From Lentzea kentuckyensis (GTDB lineage: Bacteria > Actinomycetota > Actinomycetes > Mycobacteriales > Pseudonocardiaceae), in assembly GCF_002150765.1 (NCBI RefSeq), contig NZ_MUYM01000004.1:1-64000 (forward strand): a stretch of 64,000 nt of DNA. Reading direction: 5' to 3'. Position numbers and translations under genes: made by a program. Of this stretch, positions 2,541 to 60,541 are shown piece after piece. A model generated the notes under the pieces. That model made no database searches and had not been told where the DNA came from. It worked only from the letters and a program-made list of their open reading frames with translations. Each line of letters begins with the position of its first letter. Position 1 is the stretch's first letter.

Positions 2541-4781
<2,241 letters not shown>

Positions 4782-5216
4782 TCAGGAACTTTTCGCGGCG
4801 GTCGTGCACTCGGGGCAGGTGCCCCAGTAGATGACCTCGGCCTCGTCGATGACGAACCCGTGGTCGTCGGATGCGTCCAGGCACGGCGCGGCGCCGACTG
4901 CGCAGTCGACGTCGGCGATGGCACCGCAGGATCGGCACACGACATGGTGGTGGTTGTCCCCGACGCGCGCCTCATAACGCGCAACGGAGCCCTGAGGTTC
5001 GATGCGTCGCAACAGGCGTGCTCCGGTCAGTGCCCGGAGCACGTCGTAAACGGCCTGGTGGGAGACCGCGCCGAGGTTCTGACGCACGACACCGATGATC
5101 GAGTCCGTGTCGGCGTGCGGGTTGCTGTGCACGGCGGACAGCACAGCAATCCGCGGAGCCGTCACCCGAAGTGACGCTCCACGCAACATGCGCTCGAAGT
5201 CGGAAGCCGTGGGCAC
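4782..5216 (-). CDS. furA: FurA-type peroxide-responsive repressor
   Basis: A Fur-family winged-helix repressor (144 residues) expected to control itself and katG. The helix-turn-helix lies around AVSHQAVYDVLRAL. The NHHHVVCRSCG stretch supplies His ligands and the first CxxC pair, and CPEC near the C-terminus supplies the second pair for structural zinc. GTG at 5216 is preferred because GGCAGGGTGG precedes it. A longer frame beginning with TTG at 5250-5252 runs into the AT-rich putative operator and is unlikely. Confidence 0.9.
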   Translation of the reverse strand: MPTASDFERMLRGASLRVTAPRIAVLSAVHSNPHADTDSIIGVVRQNLGAVSHQAVYDVLRALTGARLLRRIEPQGSVARYEARVGDNHHHVVCRSCGAIADVDCAVGAAPCLDASDDHGFVIDEAEVIYWGTCPECTTAAKSS

Positions 5217-5224
5217 GGGAGCCA

Positions 5225-5275
5225 CCCTGCCGTCTTTTCTGGATTGAGTCAAGTTAATGAACGATACAAGTCACC
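5225..5275 (-). promoter_or_regulatory. Putative furA promoter/operator
   Basis: Immediately upstream of furA is an AT-rich island (around GTTAATGAACGATACAAG on the plus strand) in otherwise GC-rich DNA. Autoregulated furA promoters are known to carry an AT-rich FurA-binding stretch here. The match is by position and composition only, and no box was proven. Confidence 0.45.
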
Positions 5276-5286
5276 CGACCGGGTCA

Positions 5287-6687
5287 TCACCGCACGTCAG
5301 ACACGGCGGCCACGGCGTCGGCCAGCCGCCGCACGCCCTCGGCGAGCACGTGCTCAGGTGCGCCGCCGTAGGTCAAACGGAGAAAACCGCCCGGTGGTTC
5401 AGCGGCGAACCACGGCCGTCCCGGGAAGACCACCACGTCGCGGGCCGCGGCAGCTGTCGTCAGCTCCTGCTCGTCGACGCCGTCCGGCAACGTCGCCCAC
5501 AGGTGCAGGCCCCCGGACGACCGCGCGACCTCGAACTCCGGCAGGTGCTCGCGGATCGCGCGGGCCAGAGCGTCGCGCCTCGACCTCAAGGACTGCTGGA
5601 GCGTGCGCAGGTGCCGGCGCCAGACCGGTGACGTCACGAAGTCGATCGCCGCCTCCTGCAACGGCCCGGCGACGTACAGGTCCTGCCGCGACCTGGTGTT
5701 CTTCAGCCGGGTGCCCGCCGGTCCGCGCGCCCCGATCACGGCCACGCGCAGCCCCGGCGCGGCGACCTTGGTCAGCGAGCGGACGTAGACGACGTGGCCG
5801 TCGCTGTCCTGCGAGGCCAGCGTCGGCGGTGCGGCGCCGTCGATCGTGAAGCCGCGCGCCCAGTCGTCCTCGACCAGGAACGCGCCGACTCGGCGAATGA
5901 TCCGCATGACCTCGGGCCGTCGTTCGTCGGACAGCACCGCGCCGTGCGGGTTCGCGTGCAACGGCTGGCAGTAGAAGAGCTTCGAGCCGGTGCGTTCGAA
6001 CGCGGCCTGCAGCAGGTCCGGCCGCACGCCGTCCTGATCCGCCGGCACGGGAACGACCTTGAGTCCCGCGTCGCGCGCGGCCGCGATCGCGCCCAGGTAG
6101 GTGGGCGACTCGACGAGCACGGTGTCACCGCGGTCACCGAGCCCGCGGAAGACCGTCGCGAGCGCTTCCTGCGCGCCCGCGCACACCGTCATGTCGCCGG
6201 CCCTGAGCTCGCCGCCCGCCTCTTTCGCGAACCAGGCGCGCAACTCCTCCTTGCCCTCCACCGGAACGCGCCCCCACGAGGCGGGCCGCCGAGCCGCCCG
6301 GCTCAACGCGGCGCCGAGTGCGTCGGCGGGCTGCAGGTCGGGGTCGAGGTAGCCGCTGGACAACGGGATGGCCTCGGGTTTCGGCACCGCGAGGAGGTTC
6401 GCCACGAGCTCCTCACCCGGCCTGCCCTCGCCGAGCGCGACAGCCTGCCACGACAGGTCGTGGCTGGTGGCGGGCGTGTGTTGCGCGACGTAACTGCCCC
6501 GGCCGGGACGCACCTCGACGAGTCCTTCTGCCGCCACGCGCTGGATCGCCTGCTGCACCGTCGCGGGAGAGGCCCGGTGCCGCGCCATCAGATCGCGCAC
6601 CGACGGCATCCGGTCGCCCGCTCGCCCGGCGAGTGCCGTGGCTCTCAGGTCCTCGATAACGCGGACGGCTGCGTTATCATCATTCAT
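5287..6687 (-). CDS. MocR/PdxR-type GntR-aminotransferase regulator
   Basis: A chimeric transcription factor of 466 residues. It has an N-terminal GntR winged helix (MPSVRDLMARHRASPATVQQ, recognition helix near residues 35-50) and a fold-type I aminotransferase domain. The PLP-binding lysine is expected in VRSLTKVAAPGLR. Such MocR proteins (GabR, PdxR, TauR) sense PLP or amino compounds and bind direct repeats. ATG at 6687 is chosen because the upstream in-frame codon is TTG. The neighbouring EamA exporter is divergent and is the likely target. Direct CGTTATC repeats lie in the shared control region. Confidence 0.9.
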   Translation of the reverse strand: MNDDNAAVRVIEDLRATALAGRAGDRMPSVRDLMARHRASPATVQQAIQRVAAEGLVEVRPGRGSYVAQHTPATSHDLSWQAVALGEGRPGEELVANLLAVPKPEAIPLSSGYLDPDLQPADALGAALSRAARRPASWGRVPVEGKEELRAWFAKEAGGELRAGDMTVCAGAQEALATVFRGLGDRGDTVLVESPTYLGAIAAARDAGLKVVPVPADQDGVRPDLLQAAFERTGSKLFYCQPLHANPHGAVLSDERRPEVMRIIRRVGAFLVEDDWARGFTIDGAAPPTLASQDSDGHVVYVRSLTKVAAPGLRVAVIGARGPAGTRLKNTRSRQDLYVAGPLQEAAIDFVTSPVWRRHLRTLQQSLRSRRDALARAIREHLPEFEVARSSGGLHLWATLPDGVDEQELTTAAAARDVVVFPGRPWFAAEPPGGFLRLTYGGAPEHVLAEGVRRLADAVAAVSDVR

Positions 6688-52833: not shown

Positions 52834-52884
52834 TCCGGCGAGTGTGGCAGTCGATGGCCCAGCTCACAGCCATTTGACTCGAAT

Positions 52885-53002
52885 TGATCCCTCCCGCACG
52901 ATCGGGAGTCGACAACAGCATCCGCACGCCGCGGGGGAAGCCGGTGCAACTCCGGCACTGACCCGCAACGGTGAAAGTCCGACTGCCCGTGGCGCGCGGT
53001 AG
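52885..53002 (+). ncRNA. Cobalamin riboswitch
   Basis: A conserved cobalamin aptamer core is visible: GGGGAAGCCGGTGCAACTCC (52934-52953), the matching CCGGC arm, then CTGACCCGCAACGGTGA and the B12-box-like AAGTCCGACTGCCCG (52975-52989). It lies 43 nt before the first gene of the ECF operon. It should switch expression off when adenosylcobalamin is plentiful, probably at translation since no terminator hairpin with U-tract follows. A CCCCG/CGGGG stem lies just before the GGGAGG translation signal. Confidence 0.88.
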
Positions 53003-53044
53003 CTCCACCAACCCCGTCGAGGAACAGCGGGGCAGGGAGGCGTA

Positions 53045-54232
53045 GTGATCAGGAAATCCGCGTTGGTCGCGGTCGTCGCGGCCGCGCTCGTGGCGGCACC
53101 GCAGGCGCAGGCGGCCGAGCTCTCGTCGGGAACCTGGCTGGCCGGCCAGTTCAGCGGGGGTGATCGACTGCTCCGCTTCCCGAACGACCCCTCCTCCGGT
53201 GATCCCGGCCTCACCGCCGACGGCGTCTACGCGTTGGCGGCCGCGGGCGTCGGCAAGTCGACCGCGGTGAAGGCCGCCGCGTGGCTGGCCGCGTCACCGC
53301 AGCTGGAGACGTTCATCGGCGACGGCGAGGCCGAGTCGTACGTCGGCGGCCTCACGAAGCTCGCGCTGGTCGCGCAGACGCTCGGGGACGACCCGGCGGA
53401 GTTCGGCGGCGTGGATCTGGTGAAACGGCTGGTGGCGCTGGAAGAGCCGACCGGGCGGTTCCGCGACAGGACCGATCCGTCGTTCGACCAGACCAACGCG
53501 TTCACGCAGGCGCTGGCGATCATCGTGCTGAAGCGCGCGGGGCAGGACGTCGCGCAGCCCGTCACGTTCCAGGCCGCCGCGCAGTGCCCGGACGGCGGGT
53601 TCCCGATCGTGTTCGGCGAGGCGGCCTGCAAGTCCGATGTGGACGGTACGGCGATGGTGTTGCAGGCACTGCTGGCCGCGGGGGAGAAGACCGCGTCGGC
53701 GAAGGCCCTCGACTGGCTCGTGGCGCAGCAGCAGGCCGACGGCGGGTTCCAGGCGATGGTGCCGCCGACGAACGCCAACACCACCGGCCTCGCCGTCGGT
53801 GCCCTGGTCGCCGGTGGTCGGACGGCCGCCGCGGACAAGGCCGTCGCCTTCCTGAAGACGTTGCAGCTCGGTTGCGCCGCACCTGGGGCCCAGCGCGGCG
53901 CGATCGCGTTCGACAGCAAGGGTTTCGACGCCGGAACCACCCTGCGCGCGACCGTGCAGGGCATGCTCGGGCTGGCTCGGGTGAGCCTCGCCGAGGTGTC
54001 CGCGGCGTCCGCTGCTGCCGGCGTGCCCGCGATCGTCTGCTCCGCACCGGTCACCTCCGCGCCGGTCACCTCGGCGCCCGCCCCGGCCGGCCCCGCCGAG
54101 CCGCCGGTGGATCCGCCGCTCGCCGCCACCGGCCCGGACCAGGCCGTGCCGCTGACGCTGTTCGGTTCGTTCGCGGTCGTCGCCGGTGCCGTGCTGCTCG
54201 TGGTTTTCCGTCGTCGGAAGGTTGGTGCGTGA
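53045..54232 (+). CDS. Sortase-anchored alpha-barrel protein, intrinsic-factor-like
   Basis: A 395-residue exported protein. The signal peptide ends at AQAA (residue ~25). The body is an alpha/alpha barrel with prenyltransferase/squalene-oxidase-type repeats (QQQADGGFQAM, QCPDGGFPIV, LQALLAAGEKTASAKALDWL), the fold also used by the alpha domain of intrinsic factor and transcobalamin. Four Cys could form disulfides. The C-terminus has a Pro-rich spacer, the sorting signal LAATG, a hydrophobic helix and a basic tail, implying class-E sortase attachment to the wall. It is the first gene after the riboswitch; GTG is preceded by GGGAGG. Confidence 0.8.
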   Translation: MIRKSALVAVVAAALVAAPQAQAAELSSGTWLAGQFSGGDRLLRFPNDPSSGDPGLTADGVYALAAAGVGKSTAVKAAAWLAASPQLETFIGDGEAESYVGGLTKLALVAQTLGDDPAEFGGVDLVKRLVALEEPTGRFRDRTDPSFDQTNAFTQALAIIVLKRAGQDVAQPVTFQAAAQCPDGGFPIVFGEAACKSDVDGTAMVLQALLAAGEKTASAKALDWLVAQQQADGGFQAMVPPTNANTTGLAVGALVAGGRTAAADKAVAFLKTLQLGCAAPGAQRGAIAFDSKGFDAGTTLRATVQGMLGLARVSLAEVSAASAAAGVPAIVCSAPVTSAPVTSAPAPAGPAEPPVDPPLAATGPDQAVPLTLFGSFAVVAGAVLLVVFRRRKVGA

Positions 54233-54639
54233 TGCGCCGGATCCTCGTTGTTCTCGCCCTCGCCGCGAGCTCGTTCGTCGTCGTTCCCGCGTCGGCTGCT
54301 GACTGCGCGTACGTGAAGGTCGTCGTGGACTTCACCGCGTTCGGGGGCGGCGTCGAAACCGCTTGCACCACAGCCGATCCGGCCAACGGTCTCGAAGCGC
54401 TGAAGCCGAACTTCCCGTACACCACCGTGCCGCGCCAACCCGGTTTCGTGTGCACGATCAAGAAGCTGCCGAACCCGTGCACCATGCCCACGACCAGCGC
54501 GTACTGGTCGTACTGGCACGCCACGCCCGGCGGCACCTGCACCTACAGCACCTCGGGCGCGGGCAGCTACGACCCGGCGCCGGGCACCGTCGAGGGCTGG
54601 TCGTTCGGCGCGGGCACCGCTCCGAACGCCACTCCGTGA
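54232..54639 (+). CDS. Secreted DUF4430/transcobalamin beta-domain-like protein (short copy)
   Basis: A 135-residue exported protein (signal peptide to ~residue 22). It begins with CAYVKVVVDFTAFGGGVETA and ends with YWSYWHATPGG and GTVEGWSFGAG, the pattern of DUF4430 domains at the C-terminus of transcobalamin and intrinsic factor. Two to four Cys are present. It has no membrane anchor. Its ATG overlaps the upstream stop (TGATG) and its stop is overlapped by the next gene. Confidence 0.72.
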   Translation: MRRILVVLALAASSFVVVPASAADCAYVKVVVDFTAFGGGVETACTTADPANGLEALKPNFPYTTVPRQPGFVCTIKKLPNPCTMPTTSAYWSYWHATPGGTCTYSTSGAGSYDPAPGTVEGWSFGAGTAPNATP

Positions 54640-55397
54640 AAAGGCTCTTCGTCGCGCTGGCACTGGTGGTCGCGTTTCTGCCGGTGCCGGTGCCGGCGCA
54701 CGCGGCGGGCTGCGACGGCGTGACCGTCGTCGTGGACTTCCGCGCCCTCGGGGGAGGCGTGCAACAAGGTTGCGCGCCGGGCAGTCCGACGTCCGGGGTG
54801 GCGGCGCTGACGGCGGCCGGGTTCGGCTACACGTACGCGTCGCGCCAGCAGGGTTTCGTGTGCCGCATCAACGGAAAGCCGGGCGCGGACGCGGACAGGT
54901 GCGTCACCACCTCGCCCGCTTCGGCGTACTGGTCGTACTGGCACGGCTCGCCGGGCGGTTCCTGGTCGTACAGCAACCAGGGCGCGGCGACGTACGTGCC
55001 GGCTCGCGGAACCGTCGAGGGCTGGGCGTTCGGCGCCGGGGAACAGCCCGGCATCGCACCGCCCGCGGCTCCGGCACCCGTGCCTCCCGCACCGCAACCG
55101 CCACCGGTGCAGCAACCTCCGGCCCGACAACCGCCGGCACAACAACCACCAGCCGTGACAACGACTACCGCGCCGCCCACCTCCTCGGCGGTTCCGACGT
55201 CGTCTTCGGCAACGACTTCCTCCTCGACGCCTTCGACCACTGTGTCGTCGGTGGCGGTCGAAGAGAAGTCGCAGCAGGTTGCGGAGAAGTCGGGGTCCGG
55301 GTGGCTATGGACGGGGATCGGCGCCCTGTTGATCGCGGCGCTCGTGGTGGCCGGCCTGCTGATCGCACGACGTCGCCGCGGCGCGGAAGACGCGTGA
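54636..55397 (+). CDS. Membrane-anchored DUF4430/transcobalamin beta-domain-like protein
   Basis: A 253-residue paralogue of the preceding protein. It has a signal peptide to ~residue 24, a DUF4430-like domain (CDGVTVVVDFRALGGGVQQG to YWSYWHGSPGGSWSYSNQG and GTVEGWAFGAG), a Pro- and then Ser/Thr-rich linker (~residues 143-205) and a C-terminal helix with basic tail (WLWTGIGALLIAALVVAGLL). It is probably the membrane-tethered partner near the importer. Confidence 0.75.
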   Translation: MKRLFVALALVVAFLPVPVPAHAAGCDGVTVVVDFRALGGGVQQGCAPGSPTSGVAALTAAGFGYTYASRQQGFVCRINGKPGADADRCVTTSPASAYWSYWHGSPGGSWSYSNQGAATYVPARGTVEGWAFGAGEQPGIAPPAAPAPVPPAPQPPPVQQPPARQPPAQQPPAVTTTTAPPTSSAVPTSSSATTSSSTPSTTVSSVAVEEKSQQVAEKSGSGWLWTGIGALLIAALVVAGLLIARRRRGAEDA

Positions 55398-56425
55398 GGC
55401 TGCACTCCGGTGCGTGGTGGCTTTGGGCGCTGGGCCTGGCCACCGCCGCCAGCCGCACGACGAACCCCCTGGTGCTGGGCCTGATCCTGGCCGTGGCGGG
55501 CGTGGTCGTGGTGACCTGCCGGGCGAACACGCCGTGGGCGGGAACCTACGGCGTGTTCCTCAAGTTCGGCCTGCTGATCATCGGCCTGCGCGTTCTGCTG
55601 CACGTCTTCCTCGGCGGCATCGCGGGCCCGACGATCCTGTTCACGCTGCCTCAGGTCCCGCTCCCGGACTGGGCCCAGGGCATCAGAATCGGCGGCCCGG
55701 TCTCCACCGAGGGGCTGGTTTTCGCGCTGTACCAGGGTTTGCTGCTCGCGACGATCCTCAGCTGCGTAGGTGCCGCCAACGCCCTCGCGAACCCCAAACG
55801 CCTGCTCCGCTCGCTGCCCGCCGCGTTGTACGAGGTGAGCGTGGCCGTCGTGGTGGCGCTGACCGTGGCACCGCAGCTGGTCGCGTCCGCGCGGTCGGTG
55901 CGGAAGGCGCGTCAGCTCAGAGGTGACACGGCACGTGGTGTGCGGGCGGTCCGCACGATGTTGGTGCCGGTGCTGGAAGACGCCCTCGAACGGTCGTTGG
56001 TGCTGGCCGCCTCCATGGACTCCCGCGGCTATGGCCGCACGGCCGGTATCTCGCGGCGGGACCGGGCGTTGACGGGAACGTTGGTGCTGGCCGGGCTCTT
56101 CGGGTTCTGCATCGGCATGTACGGCCTGCTCGCCGACGCGTACTCCGGCTGGCCGCTGCTGGCGCTCGGCGGTGTGCTGGCGATCGCGGGCCTGAAGGTC
56201 GGCGCGCGCCGGGTGCCGCGCACGCGTTATCGGCCGGACCGGTGGACCGCCAGGGCTGTCGGGGTGGCGTTGAGCGGGGCCGTGGCGGCTGTGGTGCTGG
56301 TGTTCTCGGCGGATCCGGCGTTGTCGCCGTCGACGGTGCCGCTGACCGCGCCGGAACTGCCGCTGCTGCCGGCGTTGGCCGTGTTGGTGGCGTTGGCACC
56401 GATGGTGATCGCGAGGGAAGCATGA
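55394..56425 (+). CDS. ecfT: ECF transporter T component
   Basis: A 343-residue membrane coupling protein with about eight helices. The cytoplasmic coupling helices carry SARSVRKARQLRGD and LAASMDSRGYGR, the Ala-Arg-Gly-type motifs that contact the ATPases. The length exceeds the usual ~260 because of extra helices at the C-terminus. The start is GTG overlapping the previous stop. The adjacent A-A' and S genes make this a dedicated (group I) transporter. Confidence 0.88.
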   Translation: MRLHSGAWWLWALGLATAASRTTNPLVLGLILAVAGVVVVTCRANTPWAGTYGVFLKFGLLIIGLRVLLHVFLGGIAGPTILFTLPQVPLPDWAQGIRIGGPVSTEGLVFALYQGLLLATILSCVGAANALANPKRLLRSLPAALYEVSVAVVVALTVAPQLVASARSVRKARQLRGDTARGVRAVRTMLVPVLEDALERSLVLAASMDSRGYGRTAGISRRDRALTGTLVLAGLFGFCIGMYGLLADAYSGWPLLALGGVLAIAGLKVGARRVPRTRYRPDRWTARAVGVALSGAVAAVVLVFSADPALSPSTVPLTAPELPLLPALAVLVALAPMVIAREA

Positions 56426-57978
56426 TCGAGTTCGAGAACGTCACGATCACCTACGCCGAGCAGCCGGTGCTGTCGGGCATCTCGGTGGAGATCCCCGAGG
56501 GCGAGCTGTGCCTGGTCGTCGGCCGCACCGGCTCCGGCAAGTCGACGTTCCTGCGCGCGATCAACGGCCTGGTCCCGCACTTCAGCGGGGGCACGCTGGC
56601 CGGACGGGTGCTGGTGGACGGCCGTGACACCGCGAAGCACCCGCCGCGCGAACTGGCGGACGTGGTCGGGTTCGTCGGCCAGGACCCGATGGCGGGCTTC
56701 GTCGCGGACAACGTCGAGGACGAGCTCGCCTACTCGATGGAGTCGCTCGGCCTGCCCGGCGACGTCATGCGCAAGCGCGTCGAGGAAACCCTTGACCTGC
56801 TGGGCCTTGCCTCGTTACGAGACCGTCCACTCGCGACTCTGAGCGGCGGCCAGCAGCAACGGGTCGCGATCGGCGCGGCACTCACCGCCCACCCGAGGAT
56901 CCTCGTCCTGGACGAACCGACCTCCGCGCTCGACCCCGGCGCCGCCGAAGACGTTCTGGCCGCCGTGCAACGGCTTGTGCACGACCTCGGCATGACGGTC
57001 GTGATCGCCGAGCACCGCCTGGAACGCGTCGCCCAGTACGCGGACCGGGCCCTCCTGCTGCCGCAGGGCGAGATCGGCGACGTCGGTGAGATCCTGGCCG
57101 CCGCACCGGTCGCGCCACCCGTGGTCAGACTCGCGCGGGTCGCCGGGTGGTCGCCCGTACCGGTGAGCGTGCGAGACGCGCGGCGGGTCGCGGCACCCCT
57201 GCGCGCACGACTCCCGCAACCCACGACCGAGACCCGCGAACCGACCGCGACCGTGCTCGAAGCGCGGGACGTCGTCGTGAAGTACGGCGATGTCCGGGCC
57301 GTGCAAGGGGTTTCGCTGGCCGTCGGTGCCGGGGAACGCGTCGCGCTCATGGGCCGCAACGGTTCCGGCAAGTCGTCGCTGCTGTGGGCGGTGCAGGGCA
57401 GTGGCAAGCGCGCGTCCGGCACCGTGTCCGTCGGTGGCACCGACCCGAAGACGTCGAAGCCCGCCGTACGCCGCACAACCGTCGCGTTGGTGCCTCAGCA
57501 GCCGTCCGACCTGCTCTACCTGGAGTCGGTCGCGCAGGAGTGCGCGCTGGCCGACACCGAGACCGGTCGACCGGCCGGTACCTGCCGGAGGTTGCTGGAC
57601 GGCCTGGCTTCCGTGCCGCAGGACGCGCACCCGCGCGACCTGTCGGAGGGCCAACGGCTCGCGCTCGTGCTGGCCGTGATGCTGACCGGGGCCCCGGGCG
57701 TGCTGCTGCTCGACGAACCGACGCGCGGCCTCGACCACCCGGCGAAGGCAGCGCTCGCCGAGGTGCTCAAGAAGTCGGGCAGTGCGATCGTGCTGGCCAC
57801 GCACGACGTCGAGTTCGTCGCCGAGTACGCGACGCGGGTGATCGTGATGGCCGAGGGCGAGGTGGTCGCGGACGGCCCGGCGCGCGAGGTGGTCACCTCG
57901 TCACCGATCTTCGCCCCGCAGGTCAGCAAGATCCTCGGGCCGTGGCTGACGGTCGCCGACGTCGAGGCAGCGCTGTGA
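56422..57978 (+). CDS. ECF transporter fused A-A' ATPase
   Basis: A 518-residue fusion of two ABC ATPases. The first has GRTGSGKSTFL (Walker A), LSGGQQQRVAIGAAL (signature), LVLDEPTSALDP (Walker B) and the switch His in AEHRLE. The second has GRNGSGKSSLL, the altered signature DLSEGQRLALVLA, LLLDEPTRGLDHP and ATHD. It powers the importer with the T and S proteins. The ATG overlaps the T stop and the GTG of S overlaps its stop. Confidence 0.92.
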   Translation: MIEFENVTITYAEQPVLSGISVEIPEGELCLVVGRTGSGKSTFLRAINGLVPHFSGGTLAGRVLVDGRDTAKHPPRELADVVGFVGQDPMAGFVADNVEDELAYSMESLGLPGDVMRKRVEETLDLLGLASLRDRPLATLSGGQQQRVAIGAALTAHPRILVLDEPTSALDPGAAEDVLAAVQRLVHDLGMTVVIAEHRLERVAQYADRALLLPQGEIGDVGEILAAAPVAPPVVRLARVAGWSPVPVSVRDARRVAAPLRARLPQPTTETREPTATVLEARDVVVKYGDVRAVQGVSLAVGAGERVALMGRNGSGKSSLLWAVQGSGKRASGTVSVGGTDPKTSKPAVRRTTVALVPQQPSDLLYLESVAQECALADTETGRPAGTCRRLLDGLASVPQDAHPRDLSEGQRLALVLAVMLTGAPGVLLLDEPTRGLDHPAKAALAEVLKKSGSAIVLATHDVEFVAEYATRVIVMAEGEVVADGPAREVVTSSPIFAPQVSKILGPWLTVADVEAAL

Positions 57979-58817
57979 TCGCGATTCCACGCCGGTCGGC
58001 GATCGCCCTGGTGGTGTCCGGGGTGATCGGCCTGGCCGCGTTCACCTGGCCGCTGTTCGTCGCGCCGTCCAGCGACATCGCGCACGGCGGTGACGCGCCG
58101 TGGACGTTCGCGCTGCTGCTGCCGTTGGTGCTGGCGGTCGTCCTCGCCGAGTTGAGCGACAAGGGCATGGACTCCAAGGCGATCGCCATGCTCGGGGTGC
58201 TGTCCGCGCTCGGCGCCGCGATCCGGCCGCTCGGCGCGGGCACGGCGGGCATCGAGACGGTCTTCTTCCTGATGGTGCTGGGCGGCCGGGTGTTCGGCCC
58301 CGGCTTCGGTTTCGTGCTGGGCAACACCACGTTGTTCGCCTCGGCCCTGCTGACCGGCGGCGTCGGCCCGTGGCTGCCGTACCAGATGCTCGGCGCGGCC
58401 TGGGTCGCTCTCGGTGCCGGCCTGCTCCCGCAGTGGCGCGGCCGGGCGGAGATCGCGCTGCTGGCGGGGTACGGCGTGATCAGTTCACTGCTGTTCGGGT
58501 TCCTGCTGAACCTGTCGTTCTGGCCGTTCGCGGTCGGCGAGGGCACCTCGGTGAGCTTCGACCCGGACGCGTCCGCGGGCACGAACCTGGTGCGGCTGGC
58601 GGCTTTCACGCTCGCCACCTCGCTCGGCTGGGACGTCGGGCGAGCCGTCACCACCGCGGTTCTGGTGGTGCTGACGGGACCCGTGCTGCTGCGGACACTG
58701 CGCCGCGCCGCACGGAGAGCCACGTTCGAATTGGCTCAGACCATTGACGGCCGATGGGAAGGATGGTCACGCTGGTCCTCGGGTCGCCGCCCCTCGACTC
58801 ATGAGGAGGAGTCGTGA
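57975..58817 (+). CDS. ECF transporter S component (putative cobalamin specificity)
   Basis: A 280-residue membrane protein with about six helices, including an N-terminal extension and the core LGVLSALGAAIRPLGAGTAG and GRVFGPGFGFVLGNTTLFAS. The ECF S family is recognised by position and the small-residue-rich helix 1. Cobalamin as substrate follows from the riboswitch and the binding-protein-like genes, not from motifs. The stop overlaps the GH20 start (GTGA). Confidence 0.82.
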   Translation: MIAIPRRSAIALVVSGVIGLAAFTWPLFVAPSSDIAHGGDAPWTFALLLPLVLAVVLAELSDKGMDSKAIAMLGVLSALGAAIRPLGAGTAGIETVFFLMVLGGRVFGPGFGFVLGNTTLFASALLTGGVGPWLPYQMLGAAWVALGAGLLPQWRGRAEIALLAGYGVISSLLFGFLLNLSFWPFAVGEGTSVSFDPDASAGTNLVRLAAFTLATSLGWDVGRAVTTAVLVVLTGPVLLRTLRRAARRATFELAQTIDGRWEGWSRWSSGRRPSTHEEES

Positions 58818-60541
58818 GAACTCGGGTTCTCGCCGTGGTCGTCACCGTGACCGCGGCGCTCTCCGTGAGCGCGCAGTCGCAGGCCGCGGAACCGTTGCGG
58901 AGTCTCGTCCCGATACCTGTCTCGGTCCAGGCCAGGGCAGGCGTCACGCACAACCTGACGGCCGCCACCAAGATCTACACCGCCCCGGCCGCACGGGACG
59001 TCGGCACCTTCCTGGCGGGCGTGCTGCGGCCGTCGACCGGGTACGCCCTGCCGGTGTCCGACGCGGTCGGCACACCCGCTGACGGCATCTCGCTGCTGCT
59101 GTCGGGGGCACCTGGCCAGGTCGGCCAGCAGGGTTACCAGCTCGACGTCGCGGCGAACGCCATCGTGGTGCGCGCCAACACTTCGGAGGGCTTGTTCGCC
59201 GGCGCGCAGACGCTCCGGCAGCTGCTGCCCGCCGCCGTGGAGAGCCCGACCACGCAACCCGGTCCGTGGAGCGTGCCGGGTGCGCTGATCATCGACCACC
59301 CGCGGTTCTCCCACCGTGGCGCGATGCTCGACGTGGCCCGCCACTTCCACCCGGTCGCCACGGTCAAGCGCTATCTCGACCAGCTGGCGCTCTACAAGAT
59401 CAACTACTTCCACCTGCACCTGAGCGACGACCAGGGCTGGCGGATCGTGATCGACAGCTGGCCGCGGCTCGCGACCTACGGCGGCAGCACGCAGGTCGGC
59501 GGCGGCCCCGGCGGTTACTACACCAAGGCGCAGTACAGCGAGATCGTGCAGTACGCGGCGGCGCGCGGGATCACGGTGATCCCCGAGATCGACATGCCCG
59601 GCCACACCAACGCCGCGCAGGCCTCGTACGCCGAGCTCAACTGCACCAACCAGGCCCCGCCGCTGCGCACGGACATAGAGGTCGGCTACTCCTCGCTGTG
59701 CGTGAACAAGGACATCACCTACCAGTTCATCGATGACGTGGTGCGCGAGATCGCGGCGCTCACGCCCGGCCCGTACTTCCACATCGGCGGCGACGAGGCG
59801 CACGCGACCTCCGACGCCGACTACCAGACGTTCATGAACCGCGCCCTGCCGATCGTGCGGAAATACGGCAAGACCGTGCTCGGCTGGCACGAGTTCGTGA
59901 AGACCACGACCGACACCACCGCCATCCCGCAGTACTGGGGCACCACGACGTCCAACGCGACGGTGCAGGCAGCGGCGGCGCGCGGCAACAAGGTCATCAT
60001 GTCGCCCGCGAACAAGGCGTACCTGGACATGAAGTACAACTCCAGCACGCCGCTCGGCCTGTCGTGGGCGGGCTACATCGAGGTCCAGACCGCCTACGAG
60101 TGGAACCCCGGCACGCACCTGAGCGGTGTCCCGGAGTCCGCGGTCCGCGGCGTCGAAGCTCCACTGTGGACCGAGACGATCGTGACCGGGCGCGACATCG
60201 AGTTCATGGCGTTCCCGCGGCTCGGGGCGATCGCGGAGCTCGCCTGGTCGCCGTGGTCGACGCACAACTGGGACCAGTTCAAGGTGCGTCTGGGCAACCA
60301 GGGCCCGCGCTGGACGACCATGGGCATCAACTTCTACAGGTCGACCCAGGTCCCGTGGGACACCGGCGGCCCGCCGCCCGGCCCGTGCTCGCAGCCGGCG
60401 TGGGAGCGCGCGAAGGTCTACACCGGCGGCAACGTGGTCTCGCACAACGGCCACAAGTGGACCGCGCAGTGGTGGACGCAGGGCGAGGAGCCCGGCACCA
60501 CCGGCCAGTGGGGCGTCTGGCGCGACGGCGGAGTCTGCTGA
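58814..60541 (+). CDS. Secreted GH20 beta-N-acetylhexosaminidase with CBM5/12
   Basis: A 575-residue exported glycosidase. The signal peptide ends near AQSQAA. A GH20b N-domain precedes the barrel with FHLHLSDDQGWR, VIPEIDMPGHTNAA and the catalytic Asp-Glu pair in HIGGDEAHA. A C-terminal chitin-binding CBM5/12 (WERAKVYTGGNVVSHNGHKW) follows a Pro-rich linker. It releases GlcNAc from chitin-type glycans. It is translationally coupled to the ECF S gene, an odd partner for a vitamin importer. Confidence 0.93.
   Translation: MRTRVLAVVVTVTAALSVSAQSQAAEPLRSLVPIPVSVQARAGVTHNLTAATKIYTAPAARDVGTFLAGVLRPSTGYALPVSDAVGTPADGISLLLSGAPGQVGQQGYQLDVAANAIVVRANTSEGLFAGAQTLRQLLPAAVESPTTQPGPWSVPGALIIDHPRFSHRGAMLDVARHFHPVATVKRYLDQLALYKINYFHLHLSDDQGWRIVIDSWPRLATYGGSTQVGGGPGGYYTKAQYSEIVQYAAARGITVIPEIDMPGHTNAAQASYAELNCTNQAPPLRTDIEVGYSSLCVNKDITYQFIDDVVREIAALTPGPYFHIGGDEAHATSDADYQTFMNRALPIVRKYGKTVLGWHEFVKTTTDTTAIPQYWGTTTSNATVQAAAARGNKVIMSPANKAYLDMKYNSSTPLGLSWAGYIEVQTAYEWNPGTHLSGVPESAVRGVEAPLWTETIVTGRDIEFMAFPRLGAIAELAWSPWSTHNWDQFKVRLGNQGPRWTTMGINFYRSTQVPWDTGGPPPGPCSQPAWERAKVYTGGNVVSHNGHKWTAQWWTQGEEPGTTGQWGVWRDGGVC

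Follow-up and report, generated by a model that had tools for sequence, protein, structure and literature searches.

How can a cell hold cobalamin firmly outside its membrane and still give it up for import? This question is raised by a locus at positions 52,885 to 58,817 of a 64,000-nucleotide stretch of Lentzea kentuckyensis (contig NZ_MUYM01000004.1 of assembly GCF_002150765.1, positions 1 to 64,000, forward strand), which we analysed as a whole and refer to as the window. Here, a cobalamin riboswitch precedes genes for a putative secreted toroid protein (alpha), two putative secreted beta-domain proteins (beta1 and beta2) and the parts of an energy-coupling factor (ECF) importer: the transmembrane component EcfT (T), the ATPase EcfA (A) and a substrate-specific S-component (S). 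We consider it likely that this operon is a cobalamin (corrinoid) uptake system in which a transcobalamin-like carrier of separate chains serves for capture, and we infer that alpha and beta bind cobalamin, that they clamp it between them and that S carries it. The host genome measures 10.2 Mb, and the closest named relatives of alpha come from Lentzea species. The locus comprises the following features.

52925-52996, + strand: aptamer of an AdoCbl-II riboswitch (RF01689, 40.7 bits, E = 2.8e-6)
53045-54232, + strand: alpha, predicted secreted alpha/alpha toroid of 395 residues with a GTG start, proposed counterpart of the alpha domain of transcobalamin (AlphaFold2, Foldseek, PF13243)
54119-54133, + strand: LAATG sortase motif near the C-terminus of alpha, ahead of a hydrophobic stretch and RRRK (TIGR01167)
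54232-54639, + strand: beta1, predicted free secreted beta-domain protein of 135 residues (similarity to the beta2 core)
54636-55397, + strand: beta2, 253 residues, predicted secreted transcobalamin-type beta domain with a Pro/Ser/Thr linker and a C-terminal membrane helix (AlphaFold2, Foldseek)
55302-55367, + strand: membrane helix predicted at the C-terminus of beta2 (sequence; best 19-residue hydropathy 2.53)
55394-56425, + strand: EcfT, CbiQ-like transmembrane component (PF02361)
56422-57978, + strand: EcfA, single chain with two ABC ATPase domains (PF00005)
57975-58817, + strand: putative S-component, substrate-specific subunit of the ECF transporter (PF12822 below threshold; conserved family)

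The riboswitch and the six overlapping genes described behind it in the initial annotation of this DNA proved correct in both coordinates and overlaps. The aptamer exceeds the gathering score of the RF01689 covariance model (36.5 bits), and AdoCbl-II is the sole Rfam family at its gathering score across the 64-kb window; the general Cobalamin model RF00174 also matches positions 52870-53079 (35.2 bits). The leader RNA has a folding z of -0.08, so that folding energy on its own is uninformative. The six genes lie on the same strand as the riboswitch, each starting within the stop region of its predecessor, with a 1-nucleotide overlap between alpha and beta1 and 4-nucleotide overlaps at the remaining four joins.

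The predicted fold of beta2 ties this operon to animal cobalamin carriers. The AlphaFold2 model of its 113-residue core (predicted local distance difference test score, pLDDT, 87.2; predicted template modelling score, pTM, 0.83) was compared by Foldseek with 350,542 PDB chains, among which ranks 1-5 were all transcobalamin (human and rat; probability 0.99-1.00, TMq 0.55-0.59, E = 0.0068-0.036), followed at a distance by rank 6 (E = 0.19, probability 0.69) and rank 7 (probability 0.12). These E-values are modest, none reaching 0.001, and the five top matches represent one protein family and count as one independent match. The model consists of strands (E) and a helix (H) at E6-12, E20-26, H32-38, E43-46, E49-56, E76-82, E88-90 and E105-111, which we read by eye as the order S1-S2-helix-hairpin-S3-S4-S5. 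A hairpin inserted after the helix defines the transcobalamin-type SLBB clade (PMC1949818, PMC1796856; papers cited by PubMed Central identifier are represented here by excerpts). By its modelled fold, beta2 is predicted to belong to this clade of beta-grasp domains. Beta1 is assigned a beta domain from its 55% identity with the beta2 core (alignment A2). Beta2 continues into a linker rich in proline, serine and threonine and ends in its membrane helix; beta1 has no C-terminal hydrophobic stretch, and no wall or membrane anchor was seen in its sequence.

The initial annotation had likened both proteins to DUF4430 and to the beta domain of animal carriers, and only the latter likeness held, at the level of the beta2 fold. 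In alignments of 60 alphas and 50 betas drawn from the window and related loci, DUF4430 (PF14478) matched none of the 50 window-type betas at E ≤ 1, nor did it match anything in the window genome, and no Pfam or NCBIfam model matched the beta proteins above its cut-off. The SCO2322 family model NF040672 aligned over about 40 residues with 28.0 bits (beta1) and 32.4 bits, against a cut-off of 85.

The alpha/alpha barrel proposed for the first protein was borne out by its AlphaFold2 model (residues 24-332; mean pLDDT 96.8, pTM 0.94), a toroid of thirteen helices whose best 50 of 848 Foldseek matches are toroid enzymes such as cyclases and prenyltransferases. In Pfam, alpha is a weak toroid (PF13243, 26.2 bits, cut-off 26.1), and its match to NF053823 (SCO2321_fam) is sub-threshold, with 94.1 bits against a cut-off of 300. 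The search with PF01122, the model of animal cobalamin-binding proteins, which had been suggested as a check along with PF14478, gave no support: the window alpha had no match at E ≤ 1, and only 8 of the 60 aligned alphas matched weakly (best E = 0.0074).

All three proteins had been described as secreted, and their predicted fates differ: sortase attachment for alpha, which has a signal peptide as judged by eye, no anchor for beta1 and a membrane helix for beta2. The C-terminus of alpha passes TIGR01167 (20.3 bits, cut-off 15.9) and falls 0.3 bits short of NF058582 (26.7 bits, cut-off 27), and the window genome contains five sortase matches; with its LPXTG-type signal and these sortases, alpha is predicted to be a sortase-anchored surface protein. 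Among 113 alpha-containing frames, 69 have a hydrophobic C-terminal stretch, 65 an LxxTG close to the end (partly by chance, as with LGLTG inside free alphas), 58 both and 37 neither. Eighteen of these 37 anchorless frames end within 2 residues of the toroid and so resemble free alphas, and many of the others run off the fetched stretch. The window genome has a single alpha match; a free alpha can also sit outside the operon, as in genome G011 of the genus Lentzea, where it lies about 20 kb away.

The importer was also described as complete, and the matches agree. EcfT scores 32.1 bits against PF02361 (cut-off 25), and EcfA contains two stretches of PF00005 (ABC_tran, E = 4.3e-51) and passes TIGR01166 (cbiO; 231.3 bits, cut-off 211.8), with TIGR04521 and TIGR04520 below their cut-offs. 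S scores 21.9 bits against PF12822, under the cut-off of 30.7, and its membership in the ECF S-components rests on context: a conserved S occupies the equivalent place in the operons of relatives, and its family was found in 77 of 396 sampled Actinomycetota genomes, in 54 of 237 genera (S search, E ≤ 1e-20). With T, a two-domain A and S encoded in one operon, the sequence predicts a self-contained ECF transporter.

These parts stay together. Among the first 45 loci to be annotated, 37 combine alpha, beta, T, A and S (33 of 41 once duplicates are removed), which agrees with the proposal that the two carrier domains are split over separate proteins here. The usual order is alpha-beta-(beta)-T-A-S, at times with additional copies of alpha or beta. 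The eight exceptions are L098, which lacks S at the edge of the fetched stretch, L115 and L116, without a recognised beta, and L110, L114, L118, L121 and L127, with alpha alone or alpha and beta. Deep lineages of Actinomycetota hold the same parts. Alpha matches were obtained in 9 of 24 genomes of the genus, counting the window genome, seven of which have a copy with at least 68% identity, and in 56 of 200 genomes of the family, where the weaker matches resemble other toroids or wall-sorting tails.

Furthermore, in a Rfam scan of 61 operon loci, picked by protein similarity of alpha or S and not by riboswitch, 36 had a riboswitch of the cobalamin clan that reached its gathering score and lay upstream in the same orientation. 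All lie 91-621 nucleotides ahead of the first alpha or beta domain, except that of L191 at 1980 nucleotides. RF00174 matches the 10.2-Mb window genome six times, a density at which fewer than one match would be expected in the scanned sequence. In L014 (1072-1407 and 1501-2442, + strand; 1-1077, - strand), two divergent cobalamin riboswitches are each followed by an alpha-like frame, the forward one without a visible membrane anchor.

The riboswitch, the beta2 fold, the retained set of parts and fusions of alpha and beta beside T-A-S, described below, together support cobalamin as ligand and alpha and beta as its clamp, and the interpretation given in the initial annotation is supported overall. 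A mismatch of the aptamer with Rfam, or models without the barrel or the beta-domain fold, had been named there as findings that would overturn it; the aptamer matches, and both folds are predicted.

Several observations weigh against this interpretation. No sequence model ties beta to DUF4430 or to PDB proteins: the beta alignment, used as a profile against the PDB, gave no match at E ≤ 10, and hhalign of window-type betas with two Pfam-recognised DUF4430 proteins found near a canonical (window-type) alpha gave a probability of 0.4. Transcobalamin is absent from the best 50 of 848 Foldseek matches of alpha, so that the kinship of alpha with the carriers is suggested by fold class and context, and a PDB sequence search with a fused alpha-beta protein (L201) returned ten matches at E ≤ 10, headed by cyclases and without transcobalamin. 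S passes no curated Pfam or NCBIfam cut-off and has no solved relative by PDB sequence search at E ≤ 5. At threshold, 25 of the 61 scanned loci have no riboswitch, including L108-L110, all three loci scanned from the presumed Streptomyces genus (a genus that passes the cut-off of the SCO families), and L192-L195 have a canonical beta and no detected alpha. Finally, the host has genes for corrin synthesis (CbiC, CobN and a CobG-like protein) and, behind another riboswitch, a gene for a FecCD permease, so that it may not depend on scavenging.

The genomic setting bears on what the ligand is. The other five riboswitch matches of the host lie beside genes for CobN and the CobG-like protein, a magnesium-chelatase-like protein, ribonucleotide reductase, CbtA and the FecCD permease, and seven B12-binding-domain matches exceed their cut-off, from which the host probably makes and uses cobalamin and imports it by another route too. 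Bearers of comparable bacterial proteins usually lack key enzymes of B12 synthesis according to the excerpts of PMC1796856, whereas the Lentzea host holds those synthesis enzymes that were looked for or met. An unlikely but sensible alternative is that this B12 maker salvages another corrinoid or a precursor, such as cobinamide or another cobamide, with architecture and mechanism unchanged. CbiC, together with CobN behind another riboswitch, would make the salvage of incomplete corrinoids reasonable, and both ECF-CbrT and human carriers take cobinamide (PMC5997447). However, the sequence gives no preference for cobinamide, and the riboswitch family is named for adenosylcobalamin.

Cobalamin is our preferred ligand; a further question is whether alpha takes part in holding it. 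Beta2, or beta1 and beta2, might act alone as the receptor, with alpha as a scaffold or as a protein for another ligand, in which case the clamp would be wrong. In L192-L195, a canonical beta accompanies a T-A-A-S chain where no alpha was detected, and beta apparently suffices. In each of these four loci, the beta is followed by one frame of 1013-1196 codons in which EcfT, S and a pair of ATPase domains are joined, apparently as a single-chain ECF transporter (Pfam matches examined for two of them):

L192, 2537-5575, - strand: single-chain ECF frame
L193, 2608-5661, - strand: single-chain ECF frame
L194, 2617-5862, - strand: single-chain ECF frame
L195, 2342-5929, - strand: single-chain ECF frame

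Elsewhere, by contrast, the two domains travel as a pair, since 37 of 70 classified loci have canonical forms of both and 8 of 70 have permuted forms of both; they are fused in L201 and L205, and in the fetched stretch of L014 a riboswitch precedes alpha without T-A-S. We therefore regard a receptor made of beta alone as improbable. A second operon type in the presumed Streptomyces genus (L142 and L143, with L139, 1273-1653, and L140, 1273-1656) combines T-A-S with a canonical alpha and a small protein that Pfam recognises as DUF4430.

The best sequence and fold matches of alpha, squalene-hopene cyclases and prenyltransferases, raise the idea that it is an enzyme of this kind and that the operon imports a lipid-derived ligand, which is very improbable given its signal peptide (by eye) and sortase signal, the transcobalamin-like beta, the cobalamin riboswitch and the incomplete DXDD motif. 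This motif is catalytic in squalene/terpene cyclases; a cyclase aligned to alpha shows DVDD at the position where alphas mostly read S-D-V-D-[A/S/G], and the last aspartate is present in 1 of 60. With DXDD incomplete in 59 of 60 alphas, a squalene cyclase was rejected, as was a complement TED, since CGEQ occurs in 0 of 60. That T, A and S import cobalt, controlled by B12 and beside unrelated surface proteins, as the CbiQ-like EcfT and a CbtA-type cobalt transporter gene behind another riboswitch might suggest, is similarly remote, given that no CbiM or CbiN model is among the matches of S at E ≤ 1, that alpha, beta, T, A and S stay together in relatives and that we know of no role of a transcobalamin-type domain with free cobalt.

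A clamp of separate chains around cobalamin would answer our opening question as follows. When cobalamin is scarce, the riboswitch would permit expression, and wall-linked alpha and a beta subunit would close on cobalamin from two sides like the domains of transcobalamin. Beta1 might act as an untethered lid or as a scavenger sent out of the cell. Beta2, on its long linker, would reach from the membrane into the wall and carry the ligand to the membrane, where the two chains would part and the opening clamp would hand cobalamin to the S-component, driven by EcfT and EcfA. Since the halves are not joined, release would require no proteolysis, unlike in animal carriers; in humans, the off-rate of the carriers is close to zero and the ligand is set free by proteolysis (PMC5997447). 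A split clamp is plausible because fragments of cleaved intrinsic factor act in trans: IF30 and IF20 together still bind cobalamin tightly, and their three-part complex with cobalamin is recognised by the receptor of intrinsic factor (PMC6257451).

Separate halves also appear to have been re-cut. The NCBIfam SCO2321 model hits the window alpha as two pieces in swapped order, and in Streptomyces-type relatives both alpha and beta are circularly permuted with respect to the window proteins. We rotated the window-type profiles, that of alpha in steps of 10 columns, and scored them on relatives, 11 for alpha and eight for beta. The alpha profile rose from 106 bits over 198 of 327 columns when unrotated to 157.5 bits over 313 columns when cut at 120, with a single main peak, and the beta profile from 32 bits over 48 of 128 columns to 49 bits over 122 columns when cut at 75-80. 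In plain reading, the YWSFW...GFRF half of permuted betas precedes the VIDFG...C...C half, and hhalign of permuted with window-type betas aligned the YWSFW...GFRF half only (probability 98.3). A slip of the repeat register is an unlikely cause of the apparent permutation given the single main rotation peak and the near-full coverage, and it is also disfavoured by non-repeated motifs that stand in swapped order in L203 and L108 (by eye).

Among the 70 classified loci, 37 have both domains canonical, 8 have both permuted and one, L203, joins a permuted alpha to a canonical beta; a canonical alpha with a permuted beta was seen in 0 of 70, and the other 24 miss one part or are ambiguous. L149 has an ambiguous alpha and a permuted beta, and L196 a permuted beta with no alpha found. 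The mixed locus is laid out thus.

L203, 1863-3551 and 3383-4537, + strand: permuted alpha beside canonical beta

In the alpha tree, built in one register, L203 pairs with the canonical L204 (97/81) and not with the remaining permuted alphas, among which a small number of canonical ones are placed with weak support. The permutation label requires four changes on this tree, at least two of them forced by well-supported branches, and six changes on the S tree, at least four of them forced, so that neither tree recovers a single origin. Probably, then, the toroid underwent two or more permutations at roughly the same loop and beta one or more, and the permutation of the L203 alpha is apparently separate from the Streptomyces-type event. 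Alternatively, horizontal exchange of alpha and beta between operons would also fit the scattered label on the S tree. L203 had been considered as an intermediate, and this was dropped: its permutation looks independent, so that it is uninformative on the order in which the two halves of the other lineage were permuted. Deep lineages are mostly canonical, with an ambiguous beta in L186 and L188, and we infer that the canonical topology is ancestral, a polarity that depends on trees drawn with midpoint roots.

Alpha and beta also occur on one polypeptide. Beside T-A-S, they are fused in transcobalamin order in L201 (a frame of 566 codons) and in L205 (818 codons; 3120-5573, + strand), and the latter bears CWB2 cell-wall-binding repeats, which suggests another way of fixing the carrier to the wall. 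Other fusions are beta-alpha in L107 (7067-9223, - strand) and beta-alpha-alpha in L106 (7065-9959, - strand), and L147 (5236-8919, - strand) is among the relatives with both domains on one polypeptide. Single frames with beta-alpha, beta-alpha-alpha or alpha-alpha were observed in L106, L107, L098 (4706-7399, - strand) and L147; tandem copies of alpha are a natural substrate for circular permutation through duplication and trimming.

We tentatively propose, as a possibility that may well not hold in full, that the carrier works in trans and can open without destruction of the protein, that its halves, freed from a linker, were then permuted, the toroid at least twice, and that animal transcobalamin is one end of a series of fused, split, alpha-only-permuted and doubly permuted forms. 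To our knowledge, it is unusual for the two partners of a proposed binding site both to be circularly permuted.

The overlaps do not stop at the six genes to which the chain had been assigned, all of which are joined as claimed, and continue past position 58817 into a seventh gene.

58814-60541, + strand: GH20 beta-hexosaminidase with CBM5/12 (PF00728, E = 1.6e-91)

Its start lies inside the stop of S with a 4-nucleotide overlap, and it may share a transcript with S and perhaps be co-translated. A GH20 homologue is present in 4 of 6 Lentzea loci examined (L090-L093). In deep lineages, an RNase P RNA gene lies within about 1.6 kb downstream of S (L200, 234-641; L187, 1832-2213; L202, 1202-1588).

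A split, separately anchored carrier would show how a tight grip becomes reversible, and animal carriers would find their place among bacterial forms that are fused, split or re-cut. The SCO2321 and SCO2322 families and a widespread actinobacterial ECF S-component would also gain a concrete, testable function.

Among known systems, the animal carriers transcobalamin, intrinsic factor and haptocorrin share with the Lentzea system the beta2 fold, a toroid partner and, in L201 and L205, the order alpha then beta. They differ in being one polypeptide, whereas the window has separate genes (with fused relatives in L201, L205, L106, L107 and L147), and the Lentzea system has two betas, wall and membrane anchors and an ATP-driven importer in place of endocytosis, and no sequence kinship with them was detected by Pfam. 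SCO2321 and SCO2322 of Streptomyces (NF053823 and NF040672) are homologous to alpha and beta and hold the same operon position, but both are permuted. The BtuG/DUF4465 proteins of Bacteroides belong to other protein families and to another type of cell envelope. They are alike in capturing B12 at the surface ahead of an importer (PMC6143338, PMC13398666). The Isd haem proteins and the ECF haem importer LhaSTA likewise place wall-anchored binders and an ECF importer in one locus (PMC7299338), with unrelated proteins and ligand, so that the likeness is one of analogy only. ECF-CbrT of Lactobacillus delbrueckii is an ECF-type importer with cobalamin as proposed substrate; CbrT binds cobalamin itself and draws on an ECF module common to several S-components (PMC5997447), unlike the Lentzea system, where T, A and S share one operon with extracellular capture proteins. 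The PDB sequence search with S (E ≤ 5) gave no link between the two S-components. A proteomics table contains the label 'additional lipoprotein component of putative cobalamin ECF transporter' (PMC9963975).

The closest precedent is the work of Burroughs, Iyer and Aravind, who in 2007 joined a bacterial transcobalamin-like domain, a toroid and CbiO/CbiQ and predicted B12 scavenging (PMC1796856). Their systems likewise combine a secreted transcobalamin-type beta-grasp domain, an alpha/alpha toroid, a CbiO-like ATPase and CbiQ, sometimes with a second paralogous SLBB protein and with Gram-positive anchors. Toroid and SLBB domain are commonly fused there, whereas in Lentzea they are separate chains with differing anchors, and the circular permutation of both domains in relatives is not mentioned in the excerpts of that paper. 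We did not find the split form with differing anchors, the two-domain permutation or the SCO2321/SCO2322 link in the open-licence literature of PubMed Central. The general idea has been known since 2007; new here, as judged from that literature, are the split with distinct anchors, the permutation of both halves and the link to SCO2321 and SCO2322.

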